Origin: Ruminococcus sp.
GTDB taxonomy: Bacteria > Bacillota > Clostridia > Oscillospirales > Ruminococcaceae
Reading direction: 5' to 3'
Length of the DNA: 64,000 nucleotides
Assembly: GCF_024692365.1 (NCBI RefSeq)
Contig: NZ_JAILMR010000130.1
Span: 1-64,000 of the forward strand
This document shows, piece after piece, positions 30,335 to 53,837 of the stretch. The notes beneath the pieces are model-generated. The model was not told the origin of the DNA. It saw only the letters and a program-made list of their open reading frames with translations, and made no database searches. Both the position numbers and the translations under genes were made by a program. The stretch's first letter is position 1, and each line of letters opens with the position of its first letter.

Positions 30335-30985
30335 TTATTTATCGGTAATAACTCTTACCCCTTTGCTCTCCATAAATTTAAGAAATTGCTCAGGCTCGCA
30401 TTCAAAACCATTTATGTCCATTCGATAATTTTTATTATCTTGTATTATATTTTCATAGTCTTGCATTATATATCCATTATCTTGTATTATATAATAATAG
30501 TCATCGGTCACAAATATCTCAATATCTTTGTAAAACAAACGCCCGAATATATATCTTCCATCGAAGAAAACACTTGTTTCCGTAAATCTGAAAGTATTTT
30601 TATACCTCAGATATTCATCGGGCTTGCGGATATTATATTGTTTGTACGGAGAGTGTTGTGATTTTAGTGCACCATCGTAACATAATAACCCTACCCACAA
30701 AGATATGATCGTAGTTACGATGATCGGTAAGCCAACAAAGGGGAGCACTTCTTTCAGATTTGCATGAGGAGGTTCATTCATGAGTATCTTTTTGAAGTCA
30801 ATTATCAGCGAAGATCCATAAGGGAGGAGCCAGAATAGATTTACTGATACAAAAATTGATATTGTCCAACTCAGGAACGTCCTCTTCCTGTAAGCTTCTA
30901 TCTCGTCTCTCATTTTGTAAGCTTCCGCGGAATCATCGTACTCTTCGGTGATGTTCTTGATGTAAGGTTTGTAATTTTTGTCCAT
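30335..30985 (-). CDS. Two-TM membrane protein, YcxB-like C-terminal domain
   Basis: TM segments near N-term; KNTFRFTETSVFFDG...LFYKDIEIFVTDDYYYII pattern. Confidence 0.55.
   Translation of the reverse strand: MDKNYKPYIKNITEEYDDSAEAYKMRDEIEAYRKRTFLSWTISIFVSVNLFWLLPYGSSLIIDFKKILMNEPPHANLKEVLPFVGLPIIVTTIISLWVGLLCYDGALKSQHSPYKQYNIRKPDEYLRYKNTFRFTETSVFFDGRYIFGRLFYKDIEIFVTDDYYYIIQDNGYIMQDYENIIQDNKNYRMDINGFECEPEQFLKFMESKGVRVITDK
30438..30492. repeat. 21-bp in-frame tandem repeat x3 within the YcxB-like gene
   Basis: tcttg(t/c)attatat at 30438, 30459 and 30480 (period 21); encodes heptads IIQDNGY/IMQDYEN/IIQDNKN. Confidence 0.8.
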
Positions 30986-49337: not shown

Positions 49338-49487
49338 TCATTTGCGGAATTTATCAATACCTTTTGGTTCTTTCGGCTGATTATACCAGAAAATGCAAGC
49401 CTGTTTATTGGTGCTCACACCAACTTTCAGTGCCAGTGATGCCAGAGCCGAGCCGGATCTTACCTTCAGTTTCTTCAATGTTTTCAT
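49338..49487 (-). CDS. agrD-like: AgrD-like cyclic lactone/thiolactone autoinducer pro-peptide (49 aa)
   Basis: MKTLKKLKVRSGSALASLALKVGVSTNKQACIFWYNQPKEPKGIDKFRK: basic amphipathic leader, Cys plus four bulky residues, then QPKEPK; AAAGGAG RBS; downstream of agrB. Confidence 0.85.
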   Translation of the reverse strand: MKTLKKLKVRSGSALASLALKVGVSTNKQACIFWYNQPKEPKGIDKFRK

Positions 49488-49518
49488 ATTATCCACTCCT
49501 TTTAATAATATGTATAAC

Positions 49519-49571
49519 CCCGACACTGCGGCTGCAAATTACCGAACAGCCGCGCTTCCTTAACTGTCGGG
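49519..49571 (-). other. Nested stem-loop directly upstream of agrD-like gene
   Basis: cccgaca/tgtcggg outer arms (49519-49525, 49565-49571), gcggctg/cagccgc inner arms (49528-49534, 49547-49553). Confidence 0.7.
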
Positions 49572-49625: not shown

Positions 49626-50231
49626 TTACGATCTCAGCTCAAGATCTATTCCTTTTGAATCGAGTATCATTTTTATATTTTTCCTGTCCTTGGGGAACTG
49701 GGTCTTAACAAGAGTCATGTTTTTTGACTGTATCTTCTTTAACGTGCTCAGGCTGATATTTGAAGTTACTCTCAGCCTGTTCAGAGTTTCATCGCTCATT
49801 CTCACGTGTTTTATGCTTTTCCAGAAAGGCAGGTCTTTTCTCTTGCCTGAAAATTTCAGCGTGCTGCTGAAAAGTTTGTCATTTGAATAACGCCCTGCAA
49901 CAGGTGCGTTGTTAAGTATATGTTCTTCAAGATGATCAAACAGATCATCAAGCTTTTTATCAACCAGGATCCTTTTAAGGATGCCAAGTGGTATCTTGTG
50001 AAGATATTCCACGTTCGTATCGGTATCATCAACATTAAGTGAAGTGTAATAATAATCCATACCGTAAATAAGTATCACCGAAAGTGAAAGTGCCTGACTG
50101 TCATAAGCATCAAAATAGATATTTACATATACATCGTTGTATGTAAAATGATACTTCGTAAATGTATCATCGATGTGATGTCCCACACTGTTATAATCGT
50201 TTATCAGTTTGTCTTTGACTTTGCTATTCAT
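49626..50231 (-). CDS. Hypothetical 201-aa protein, translationally coupled to agrB
   Basis: ORF start overlaps agrB stop as ATGA (50228-50231); family not recognised. Confidence 0.8.
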   Translation of the reverse strand: MNSKVKDKLINDYNSVGHHIDDTFTKYHFTYNDVYVNIYFDAYDSQALSLSVILIYGMDYYYTSLNVDDTDTNVEYLHKIPLGILKRILVDKKLDDLFDHLEEHILNNAPVAGRYSNDKLFSSTLKFSGKRKDLPFWKSIKHVRMSDETLNRLRVTSNISLSTLKKIQSKNMTLVKTQFPKDRKNIKMILDSKGIDLELRS

Positions 50232-50809
50232 ACAATTTTCTCCTTAAGCTTGATTTTCTCTGCTATCATCGCCATTGCTATCGTAAATACACCAGATGCC
50301 GCATAAAAACAGAAACGAACATCAACTACGATAAACACTACGCAGAACACCGTCCATATCCCCGCCCATTTAACTGACTTGTCCCGAAGTTTCCTTTTCA
50401 TGTCTTCGCTTATCGGTTTGTTAGGGTGTTCCACAGGCGAAAGCATTATGATAAGTATATTTGAAAGCAACAGCATCATAAGTGAATTAAAAAACATTGC
50501 AACTTCCGAAATATTCTTTTCAGCAAATATAAAAATAAGCAAAGTCGATACCAATGTCATCGTACAGCCTAAGTGAGTATCTGCGTGGTATCCGCCCGCA
50601 TTTACCCGCAGTGTCAGGAATGCTGCAAGATTCACAAGACAAGGAAGAATTGACTTTGTTGCCACAGCGATAACTATCGCAACAGCAAAATTCAGCACTG
50701 TCGATATCAGAAGTTCCATCCCGTAGGAGTAAACTTCAGCATCTTCTGCCTCGATTATCTTATTGTCAACAAAAAAACACGCTGTACTTTTTGCAAGTCT
50801 GGAGATCAT
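50228..50809 (-). CDS. agrB-like: AgrB family accessory gene regulator (peptide-processing membrane protease)
   Basis: 193 aa polytopic; LRVNAGGYHADTHLGCTM carries the AgrB catalytic His and Cys. Confidence 0.93.
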   Translation of the reverse strand: MISRLAKSTACFFVDNKIIEAEDAEVYSYGMELLISTVLNFAVAIVIAVATKSILPCLVNLAAFLTLRVNAGGYHADTHLGCTMTLVSTLLIFIFAEKNISEVAMFFNSLMMLLLSNILIIMLSPVEHPNKPISEDMKRKLRDKSVKWAGIWTVFCVVFIVVDVRFCFYAASGVFTIAMAMIAEKIKLKEKIV

Positions 50810-50831: not shown

Positions 50832-50898
50832 AGTATAGCGTGTTATATTCATTTTTTCAATTAGTTTTGCATGAAGTACCATTAATCGTGCATGAAGT
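50832..50898 (-). promoter_or_regulatory. agrB promoter with LytTR-type direct repeats
   Basis: Minus strand ACTTCATGCA-N11-ACTTCATGCA (21-bp period; 50898-50889 and 50877-50868) then TATACT (50837-50832). Confidence 0.78.
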
Positions 50899-50907
50899 GA
50901 CATTTCG

Positions 50908-52185
50908 TTAATATTTTATTATAATATCAACCGAGAAGATTTCACATTCGCACTTAAAAGTTATTATACCGTTAAGTTCCTCAACGGCTTTTTTGATACT
51001 TTTTACCCCCAATCCATGTGCTGAAAGATCATTTTTCTCCGTCCGCAGATCGTTAACATCTACCTGATTTGAAGAATTTGAAACACTTATATGAAGATTT
51101 CCGTTTATCTGGCTTATCCTGATACTGATAAACTTGTTATCACCGCCGTAACGTTCACAACCTTCTATCGCATTGTCAAGCAGATTAGCAAATATCCTGC
51201 AAAGCAGAAGATCATCAAGTTCAATTTTGTCAGACACCGTTATCTGCGTGACGTACTCAATGTTGTATTTCAAAGCTTCCTGCCATTTCATATTAACGAT
51301 GGAGTCAACCGAAGAAATCCCAGTATAGCATACTCCGCTTGTTTCCGAAAGTTTATCCTGTAATTCGTTCAGGTGTTTTATAGCTTCACGTGTACGTCCT
51401 TTCTCAAACATATCGTTTGCTACCGCTATCTGATTCTTGAAATCATGCCGAAGCGTCCTTATCTCATTGTACTTGTTCTCTATCAGCTTGTAATTGTCTT
51501 CATCATTTTTCAGCTGCTGTTCCATCAGCGCCATTTTCAGCTGATTTGCATACACATCAAAGAAGTCAAAAACAAACAGATTCAAAGCAAGCAGTCCAAC
51601 CGTCGATGCTATAAATATTATTGTGTCCTTGGTATTCACTCTGTTGGGGTCGAACATACTGTAAAGTATAAGTATGCTGAAAATCGGTGTGAGTATTATG
51701 GCAAACCAGTTTCTCAGTGGTATCGATCGCGTTTTGTTTTTCAGGTATTCGATGATGTATACCGATATCCAGAACATGAATATTTTTGATATTATCATGC
51801 CGATATAACGCGCTTTTCCCGAAGAAAGCTGATCTGTCGGCGTCCCTATGTCCAGCATATAGAGTACAGCAATAGGAACGAATTCTGATACCAGTGCTAT
51901 CACGATGAACATCACCGAATAAAACAAGCGCTCGATCATACTGACGTTGAACCAGACTTGCGAAGTCAGTACCAGTATCACCATAGTTGCACCAAGATTA
52001 AGCAGAGGCACAGCCATGAAGAATGATATAGCAGAAAATACAGATATGGATATAACCGTCATCAAAGCTATACCCTTGGAACCGTGATAATATTTCTCTT
52101 TGAATATGTTGTACAGAAAGAAAACTATTATAACAGATTCCGCCGCATTGTTCAACAGCTCGGCTATTATTTCCGTCCTGTTCAT
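50908..52185 (-). CDS. agrC-like: AgrC-like GHKL sensor histidine kinase
   Basis: About six N-term TMs; IRTLRHDFKNQIAVANDM H-box; LLDNAIEGCERYG N-box; GLGVKSIKKAVEEL. Confidence 0.9.
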   Translation of the reverse strand: MNRTEIIAELLNNAAESVIIVFFLYNIFKEKYYHGSKGIALMTVISISVFSAISFFMAVPLLNLGATMVILVLTSQVWFNVSMIERLFYSVMFIVIALVSEFVPIAVLYMLDIGTPTDQLSSGKARYIGMIISKIFMFWISVYIIEYLKNKTRSIPLRNWFAIILTPIFSILILYSMFDPNRVNTKDTIIFIASTVGLLALNLFVFDFFDVYANQLKMALMEQQLKNDEDNYKLIENKYNEIRTLRHDFKNQIAVANDMFEKGRTREAIKHLNELQDKLSETSGVCYTGISSVDSIVNMKWQEALKYNIEYVTQITVSDKIELDDLLLCRIFANLLDNAIEGCERYGGDNKFISIRISQINGNLHISVSNSSNQVDVNDLRTEKNDLSAHGLGVKSIKKAVEELNGIITFKCECEIFSVDIIIKY

Positions 52186-52904
52186 CAGATGCACCTGCTT
52201 TTTGTGTACTCGACAAAGGCATCAACAACTTCCTTGTAGTGCTTTCGGCTAATGTAAAGATGTTCGCCGTTTTTCAGTAGCAGCCTGTCCTTTTCCACAA
52301 AATCGATGTTTGCCGCATTAACAAGATGGCTCTTATCGGGCTTCGCAAAATACATTCCCTTGAAATTATTCTCGTAGTCTTTCAGCTTACCCGTTGTCCT
52401 ATGGCATTTGTCCGCCAGATGAATGATTATCTCCCTCGAATACACCTCGATGTAATAAATGTCATCTATCATCAGCTTTTGCAGAACATCATTCAGATAT
52501 ATAGTGATATACTTGAACTTTCTGCTGTATTCATCGATCGTGTCTTTTATCTGTTTCAGGTATATGGGACGCGCCTGATCTTTCAGTATGTAACGGAAAG
52601 CGTTCACCTCGTATCCCGAATATACGAATTTATCATAATTTGTCAGAAATGCAAGTATAACATTGCGGTCGATAGAGCGTATATATTCCGCAGTTTTAAG
52701 TCCGTCCAGTTCTTTCATCTCAATGTCCATGAAGATAATATCAAACTGACCTCTCGAAAAATTAGAAATGATATCTTCACCGCTGTTGAACGCACGGAAA
52801 TGAAAGCTGTTGTCTTCTCCGTAGATCTCAGCTATGTCTTTCAGCAGTATATCAACATAGGACTTTTCATCATCACAGATCGCGATATTCACCAAGGCTG
52901 TCAC
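52185..52904 (-). CDS. agrA-like: AgrA-like LytTR response regulator
   Basis: REC: NIAICDDEKSYVD, DIIFMDIEMKELDGL; LytTR C-term: DDIYYIEVYSREIIIHLADKCHRTTGKLKDYE...LVNAANI. Confidence 0.93.
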   Translation of the reverse strand: MTALVNIAICDDEKSYVDILLKDIAEIYGEDNSFHFRAFNSGEDIISNFSRGQFDIIFMDIEMKELDGLKTAEYIRSIDRNVILAFLTNYDKFVYSGYEVNAFRYILKDQARPIYLKQIKDTIDEYSRKFKYITIYLNDVLQKLMIDDIYYIEVYSREIIIHLADKCHRTTGKLKDYENNFKGMYFAKPDKSHLVNAANIDFVEKDRLLLKNGEHLYISRKHYKEVVDAFVEYTKSRCI

Positions 52905-53168
52905 CTTCCTTATAGATTATTCGGTTATAATTAGTATATCATTCATTATAACAATAATCAAGTATCGTTATGATATTTTTCTTATCTAGTCCATACTTTC
53001 TATGATATATACCGCGATAAATCATGAAATCAGTCGAATGTCAATTTTTTGTGAACAATGATTATTAAGATCAACGCGAAATTACGCTTCGTTAAGTAAT
53101 ATTAGCTAGATAACACAATGTATGAATCTACTATGTATAATATAATACCAAATAATTAATATCAATGC

Positions 53169-53234
53169 ATCTCATGCACTGAAATTAGCACTTCATGTAC
53201 AAACTATTGAAATAAAAAATTAATATGATATACT
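53169..53234 (+). promoter_or_regulatory. Promoter of the 124-aa gene with LytTR-type direct repeats
   Basis: ATCTCATGCA (53169-53178) and ACTTCATGTA (53190-53199), 21-bp period, then TATACT at 53229-53234. Confidence 0.7.
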
Positions 53235-53359
53235 TAAATCAATCTATAAGACAGATATCAAAACACGGAAAAAAATCATCCTTTATCCATGCACCATCAT
53301 ATCGTCTCTTAATAGATAGCGTTATCTATTAATAATATTATTTTAAGGAGGGCATTTAT

Positions 53360-53734
53360 ATGTCAGAGTTGGAAAAGAACTTAGTAGCAGAGAATCGTGG
53401 TTCCACCGAAAGTGCAAATCACCTGTTTCTCAGAAACATCGGTGCATATGTATGTGAACTCGACATCTTGGTTTTCAGGGACGGTGAAGAAAAGCGTATC
53501 CATGGAACGGGTAAGGATATCTGCGTCGGACAATCTGAAGAACTAGACCTGACCAACTATAATATTGAAAAAGGTGAGATGGTCAATGTCTACGTCAATG
53601 TTAAAGGTGGCAAAGACACACATGGAAATAAGTGGGTCGAGTATGATCCCGAAGTTAACAGAAGAGCCAATTATGAGGCTTGCGGCACTACACTAATAAA
53701 TCATTGTGATTTTTTAGGTACAACATCGATATAG
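53360..53734 (+). CDS. Conserved-looking hypothetical protein (124 aa), candidate quorum output
   Basis: MSELEKNLVAENRG...VKGGKDTHGNKWVEYDPEVNRRANYEACGTTLINHCDFLG; AAGGAGGG RBS; own promoter and terminator. Confidence 0.82.
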   Translation: MSELEKNLVAENRGSTESANHLFLRNIGAYVCELDILVFRDGEEKRIHGTGKDICVGQSEELDLTNYNIEKGEMVNVYVNVKGGKDTHGNKWVEYDPEVNRRANYEACGTTLINHCDFLGTTSI

Positions 53735-53787
53735 TGATAAATCTCATATTTATTATCCACGGCATGACCGTAGATAGCTCCATCGCA

Positions 53788-53813
53788 GAAGCCTGCCCTC
53801 ATGGGTGGGCTTC
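53788..53813 (+). terminator. Intrinsic terminator downstream of the 124-aa gene
   Basis: gaagcctgccc-tcat-gggtgggcttctt. Confidence 0.75.
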
Positions 53814-53837
53814 TTGCATTGTATACGGATAATTCAG

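Follow-up and report, generated by a model that had tools for sequence, protein, structure and literature searches.

An agr-type locus of Ruminococcus with matched repeat-bearing promoters before agrB and before a divergent gene for a small protein

Introduction

In Staphylococcus aureus, agr combines AgrB, AgrD, a GHKL kinase and a LytTR regulator, and its two oppositely oriented promoters, P2 and P3, share one intergenic region, carry direct-repeat pairs upstream of the -35 box and have spacers of 18 and 20 bp; they serve the signal operon and an output, RNAIII (PMC4227749). Clostridium acetobutylicum has an Agr-controlled protein effector gene beside agr and no known regulatory RNA: CA_C0082, which is lanthipeptide-synthetase-like and lies just downstream of agrA (PMC10301443). 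The VirR boxes of the Clostridium perfringens VirSR system are likewise direct-repeat pairs placed directly before the -35 box; their few targets are dispersed over the genome and form a core and an accessory regulon, with turnover of targets between strains (PMC2838878).

Here we describe an agr locus in the window, the whole 64,000-nucleotide stretch of Ruminococcus sp. DNA that was analysed. Like that of S. aureus, it has the set of four genes and two oppositely oriented promoters, of which one serves the signal operon and the other an output, each with direct repeats upstream of its -35 box. It differs in that the promoters are 2.3 kb apart with spacers of 17 bp (agrB) and 16 bp (p124), that the output is a protein gene instead of RNAIII, that the regulator and kinase are encoded in an operon of their own that has no site, and that agrB and agrD are separated by an additional gene. 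The back-to-back promoters, suboptimal spacers and RNAIII of the S. aureus type are thus absent here. The C. acetobutylicum effector is closer in kind than S. aureus P2/P3 (PMC10301443), although p124 is divergent and predicted to be an unrelated small beta-sandwich. VirR boxes are the nearest published parallel for repeat pairs adjacent to the -35 box with target turnover (PMC2838878), although their motif and repeat spacing are different and all sites in our case lie at the locus.

Results

Genes of the agr locus

The following genes were assigned to the locus.

52185 to 52904, minus strand: response regulator with a LytTR DNA-binding domain, AgrA-like (PF04397 and PF00072, over cut-offs)
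50908 to 52194, minus strand: GHKL histidine kinase, AgrC-like (PF14501, over cut-off)
50228 to 50809, minus strand: AgrB peptide-processing membrane protein (PF04647, 133 bits, over cut-off)
49626 to 50231, minus strand: 201-aa gene, X201, between agrB and agrD (phrog_25249 match)
49338 to 49526, minus strand: AgrD signal-peptide precursor (TIGR04223, 32.7 bits, cut-off 19)

This set of genes makes up a complete agr-type peptide quorum-sensing system. Its AgrD probably starts at the ATG at 49487, and no other AgrD of the genome scored above the TIGR04223 cut-off; the order ACIFWY before NQPKEP in the AgrD sequence (49371-49415, minus strand) suggests that the signal is a CIFWY thiolactone ring of five residues. 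X201 matched only phrog_25249 (3e-23), a family of unknown function, and the agr locus of another genome, G022, lacks it. The genome encodes six LytTR domains, leaving five other LytTR regulators, and the locus's own LytTR regulator is presumed to be the binder of both sites described below.

Two promoters with matched repeat pairs

50868 to 50898, minus strand: site 1, direct repeat pair ACTTCATGCA-N11-ACTTCATGCA before agrB (read from the sequence; kept in relatives)
50832 to 50860, minus strand: agrB promoter, TTGAAA-N17-TATACT (read from the sequence)
53169 to 53199, plus strand: site 2, direct repeat pair ATCTCATGCA-N11-ACTTCATGTA (read from the sequence; position conserved in the relatives' loci L070 and L071)
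53207 to 53234, plus strand: p124 promoter, TTGAAA-N16-TATACT (read from the sequence)
53360 to 53734, plus strand: p124, a 124-aa effector candidate, predicted beta-sandwich (reading frame, ribosome site and fold)
53787 to 53814, plus strand: intrinsic terminator hairpin 3' of p124 (stem kept via compensatory changes in two relatives)

Site 1 falls after the stop codon of the kinase gene and before agrB, and on the minus strand its repeats (50898-50868) are followed after 7 bp by TTGAAA (50860-50855) and, after a further 17 bp, by TATACT (50837-50832). Site 2 stands with its promoter in front of the divergent p124, in the 455-bp intergenic region that p124 shares with the regulator gene. Its two 10-bp repeats (53169-53178 and 53190-53199, plus strand) have a period of 21 bp, and after 7 bp they lead into TTGAAA (53207-53212), a 16-bp spacer and TATACT (53229-53234). 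The regulator-kinase operon, itself without a site, sits between the two promoters.

The original prediction had stated that both sites have the same 21-bp period and the same orientation relative to transcription, that the second repeat stands 39 bp from TATACT at site 2 and 40 bp at agrB, and that both are followed by AAACTA(A)TTGAA. The coordinates bear out all four statements: site 2 faces the p124 promoter as site 1 faces that of agrB, and the 7-bp gap to TTGAAA is equal as well. The distances of 39 and 40 bp arise because the repeats are fixed relative to the -35 box and the spacer differs by one base. Because the -35 box begins with TTGAA, the shared flank is in part promoter sequence. 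The letters between the repeats and those between the -35 and -10 boxes differ between the two sites, and site 2 is therefore not a recent copy of site 1.

At both sites, a repeat pair about two helical turns apart lies directly upstream of the -35 box, which is the geometry of LytTR promoters. ACTTCATGCA, compared by inspection with the textbook LytTR half-site, fitted on neither strand; the label LytTR-type thus refers to geometry, not to half-site sequence. The spacing of the -35 and -10 boxes is near-optimal at both promoters (16 bp at p124, 17 bp at agrB) and could allow activator-independent transcription.

Two further elements were observed around site 2. In the p124 leader, a perfect AT-rich inverted repeat, TTAATAGATA-GCGT-TATCTATTAA (53309-53332), stands directly 5' of the ribosome site, in a stretch that is absent from the relatives AR67 and G027. 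Upstream of the regulator gene and outside the repeats, a strongly conserved 29-bp block (TCAGTCGAATGTCAATTTTTTGTGAACAA, 53030-53058) reads TTGACA on the minus strand; it is possibly the regulator's promoter or a site for another factor.

The exact motif is confined to these two sites in the genome

Scored against the agrB site, site 2 matched at 17 of 20 repeat letters, or 23 of 26 with the six -35 letters included. When the 455-bp intergenic region was dinucleotide-shuffled 5000 times, the maxima were 16 and 19 and no shuffle matched site 2; the likeness of site 2 to the agrB site is not due to chance. The exact pattern TCATGYA-N14-TCATGYA occurred twice in the 3.68-Mb genome, at site 2 and at the agrB site, and a whole-genome search with a 42-bp pattern that included the -35 register, allowing at most one mismatch, returned the same two sites and no third. 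When the genome was scanned for further targets at 2-3 mismatches, counts were close to those of a backwards control, and we claim none. One-mismatch matches in L009/L010 and L013 did not recur in the scan with the -35 register and were set aside as chance; a triple TCTTGYA repeat at 30438-30486 was rejected as a site because it lies inside a coding frame, as a peptide repeat.

Conservation in relatives

Two syntenic relatives of the same genus were compared, Ruminococcus albus AR67 (G005, locus L070) and G027 (locus L071). The block of repeats and promoter was 81% identical between the window and each of the two, the adjoining upstream flank 52-56%, and synonymous divergence in neighbouring genes was about 0.7-1.2. 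The LytTR domain of the regulator was nearly invariant. G027 keeps the exact TCATGYA pair at site 2, whereas site 2 of AR67 is degenerate in both half-sites. The two AR67 half-sites show parallel changes at corresponding letters (CATGCA to TGTGCG, CATGTA to CGTGTG), and site 1 of AR67, unlike its site 2, keeps the consensus.

The gene itself was intact only in the window. AR67 p124 is 5'-truncated, having neither the ribosome site nor the first ~28 codons, and in G027 p124 is mostly deleted, with its last ~24 codons left, while site, promoter and terminator persist. Conservation in relatives was thus found for the site-plus-promoter block and not for the gene. In the shared codons of p124 and its AR67 copy, dN was 0.24 and dS 1.74, and the protein was therefore under selection for much of that time.

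Two further genomes were compared. In G022, the agr genes lie among different neighbours and the LytTR domain of the regulator is nearly identical; site 1 is present, and neither site 2 nor p124 is. In G015, whose regulator is 50% identical, two tandem AgrD genes directly follow the kinase gene (L073:4882-5228, minus strand) and are preceded by a weakly similar repeat pair.

The arrangement recurs in another genus

A profile search with p124 detected a distant relative (80.8 bits) in G218, which belongs to another genus of the same family. This copy is a pseudogene with three in-frame TAA codons, and a complete agr locus (AgrB, LytTR regulator, GHKL kinase and AgrD) is found about 9 kb away. 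The promoter of the p124 relative reads GTACTTCA-N12-GTACATCA, 11 bp, TTGAAT-N17-TATAAT. In the 3.3 Mb of G218, the pattern GTACWTCA-N12-GTACWTCA-N11-TTGA with at most one mismatch was found only before agrB, agrD and the p124 relative; a control pattern had no match in that genome, and none of 1000 shuffles of the G218 region reached the score of the site. In all five promoters, two in the window and three in G218, 11 bp separate the core half-site TCA from the -35 box. The recurrence in G218 is the strongest single reason to link the site with the gene. In three of the four genomes with a site before a p124-family gene, the gene is damaged or mostly missing and the promoter is still recognisable, for which recent loss of a costly shared product is the simplest explanation. 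A 45-aa match in G197 was uninformative and was dropped.

p124 and its transcript

p124 has a good ribosome site (AAGGAGGG, 53345-53352). The gene next after its terminator encodes a Xer-like recombinase and has its own conserved promoter, and the transcript of the second promoter therefore appears to be self-contained.

No sequence match to p124 was found in Pfam, NCBIfam, PHROGs, PADLOC or PDB, and no relative in phage and plasmid records. An AlphaFold model built from eight family members showed a beta-sandwich with a mean pLDDT of 84.5 (a two-sequence version reached only 53), and p124 is predicted to be a beta-sandwich in no named family. Among the best fold matches in PDB was the C-terminal domain 4 of cholesterol-dependent cytolysins (E about 3e-5, TM <0.5); others were a single-domain Eubacterium rectale protein (2mca, TM 0.49/0.57) and transthyretin. 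None of these matches had sequence support, in PDB or in Pfam searches with all 8 family members, and the likeness of the model to domain 4 is at the level of fold only. Identity as a cholesterol-dependent cytolysin was rejected: p124 has 124 aa, no pore-forming part, no sequence similarity and not the four domains.

In several families of the class, p124-family proteins of ~120 aa adjoin genes for trypsin-like peptidases (L123, L136-L142), which hints at a role as a peptidase partner or inhibitor. A search of this genome and its relatives, run without a positive control, found no relative of that peptidase.

Discussion

In our reading, to which we give a probability of about 80%, the locus is a complete agr system whose own regulator, when phosphorylated, activates a single dedicated output gene, p124. 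AgrB would process and export the AgrD peptide, and the GHKL kinase would sense it and phosphorylate the LytTR regulator. We infer that the regulator then binds the two half-sites, 21 bp apart and just upstream of the -35 box, at two sigma-70-type promoters. Activation of the site 1 promoter would express agrB-X201-agrD and give positive feedback on the signal, while the site 2 promoter, facing in the opposite direction, would yield a short terminated transcript encoding the putative effector p124. Counting against this reading are the damaged p124 genes of AR67, G027 and G218, a half-site unlike the textbook one, the five other LytTR regulators and the near-optimal spacing of the promoters, with which they might be transcribed even if no activator is bound.

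The original prediction described the promoters as a co-regulated, P2/P3-like pair. Co-regulation of the p124 and agrB promoters is well supported, as judged from the unique motif, the geometry, the footprint in relatives and G218. The layout is not that of P2 and P3, and the pair is P2/P3-like in logic only.

Among other explanations, the one that survives best, though we hold it improbable, is that the second promoter serves to make a functional RNA, as with RNAIII, and that the p124 frame is incidental or a leftover. It would account for a short transcript unit closed by a hairpin with compensatory changes, and for the site and promoter that are kept in G027 (there with the terminator) despite a mostly deleted gene and in G218 despite three stops. 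Recent gene loss accounts for the kept promoters equally well, however, and p124, besides having a good ribosome site, was under purifying selection at the protein level; an Rfam scan gave no family match and nothing of note.

It is considerably less probable that site 2 mainly autoregulates the regulator-kinase operon with p124 as a bystander. Site 2 does sit in the intergenic region shared with that operon, and conserved blocks occur near the regulator's promoter too, but the orientation of site 2 and its distance to the p124 promoter are exactly those seen for site 1 at agrB, the closest hexamers of the regulator gene that resemble a promoter are ~200 bp away, and G022 has the regulator operon without site 2. 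Just as improbable is binding of both sites by another LytTR regulator, with only an indirect link to the agr peptide. The six LytTR domains of the genome would provide candidates, yet the only two sites in the genome flank the locus that encodes this regulator, and site 1 travels with the agr locus in G022 despite the different neighbours. Finally, that site 2 is a functionless passive copy of the agrB promoter region, or a chance similarity, is very improbable given the shuffles (0 of 5000), the footprint in relatives, the differing inter-repeat and -35/-10 sequences, which argue against a recent copy, and the replication in G218, even though sites drift: in AR67, conserved letters are gone from each half-site of site 2.

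Under the preferred reading, with p124 as the output of the agr system, the target list is very short and can be read from the sequence alone, and a single peptide-addition or knockout experiment could therefore reveal the role of quorum sensing in this group, the host here being a cellulose-degrading gut bacterium. The locus is also a natural example of different evolutionary speeds in a regulator site and its effector gene. More tentatively, and with the odds against it, the p124 family may be a recurrent dedicated agr effector in this bacterial family, in a regulon that genome-wide consists of the system's own signal operons and one small beta-sandwich protein, whose gene is repeatedly broken or lost while the quorum-controlled promoter is kept. 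If true, such repeated loss would be expected where the product is both costly and shared, or where the promoter has a second use in making a useful RNA.
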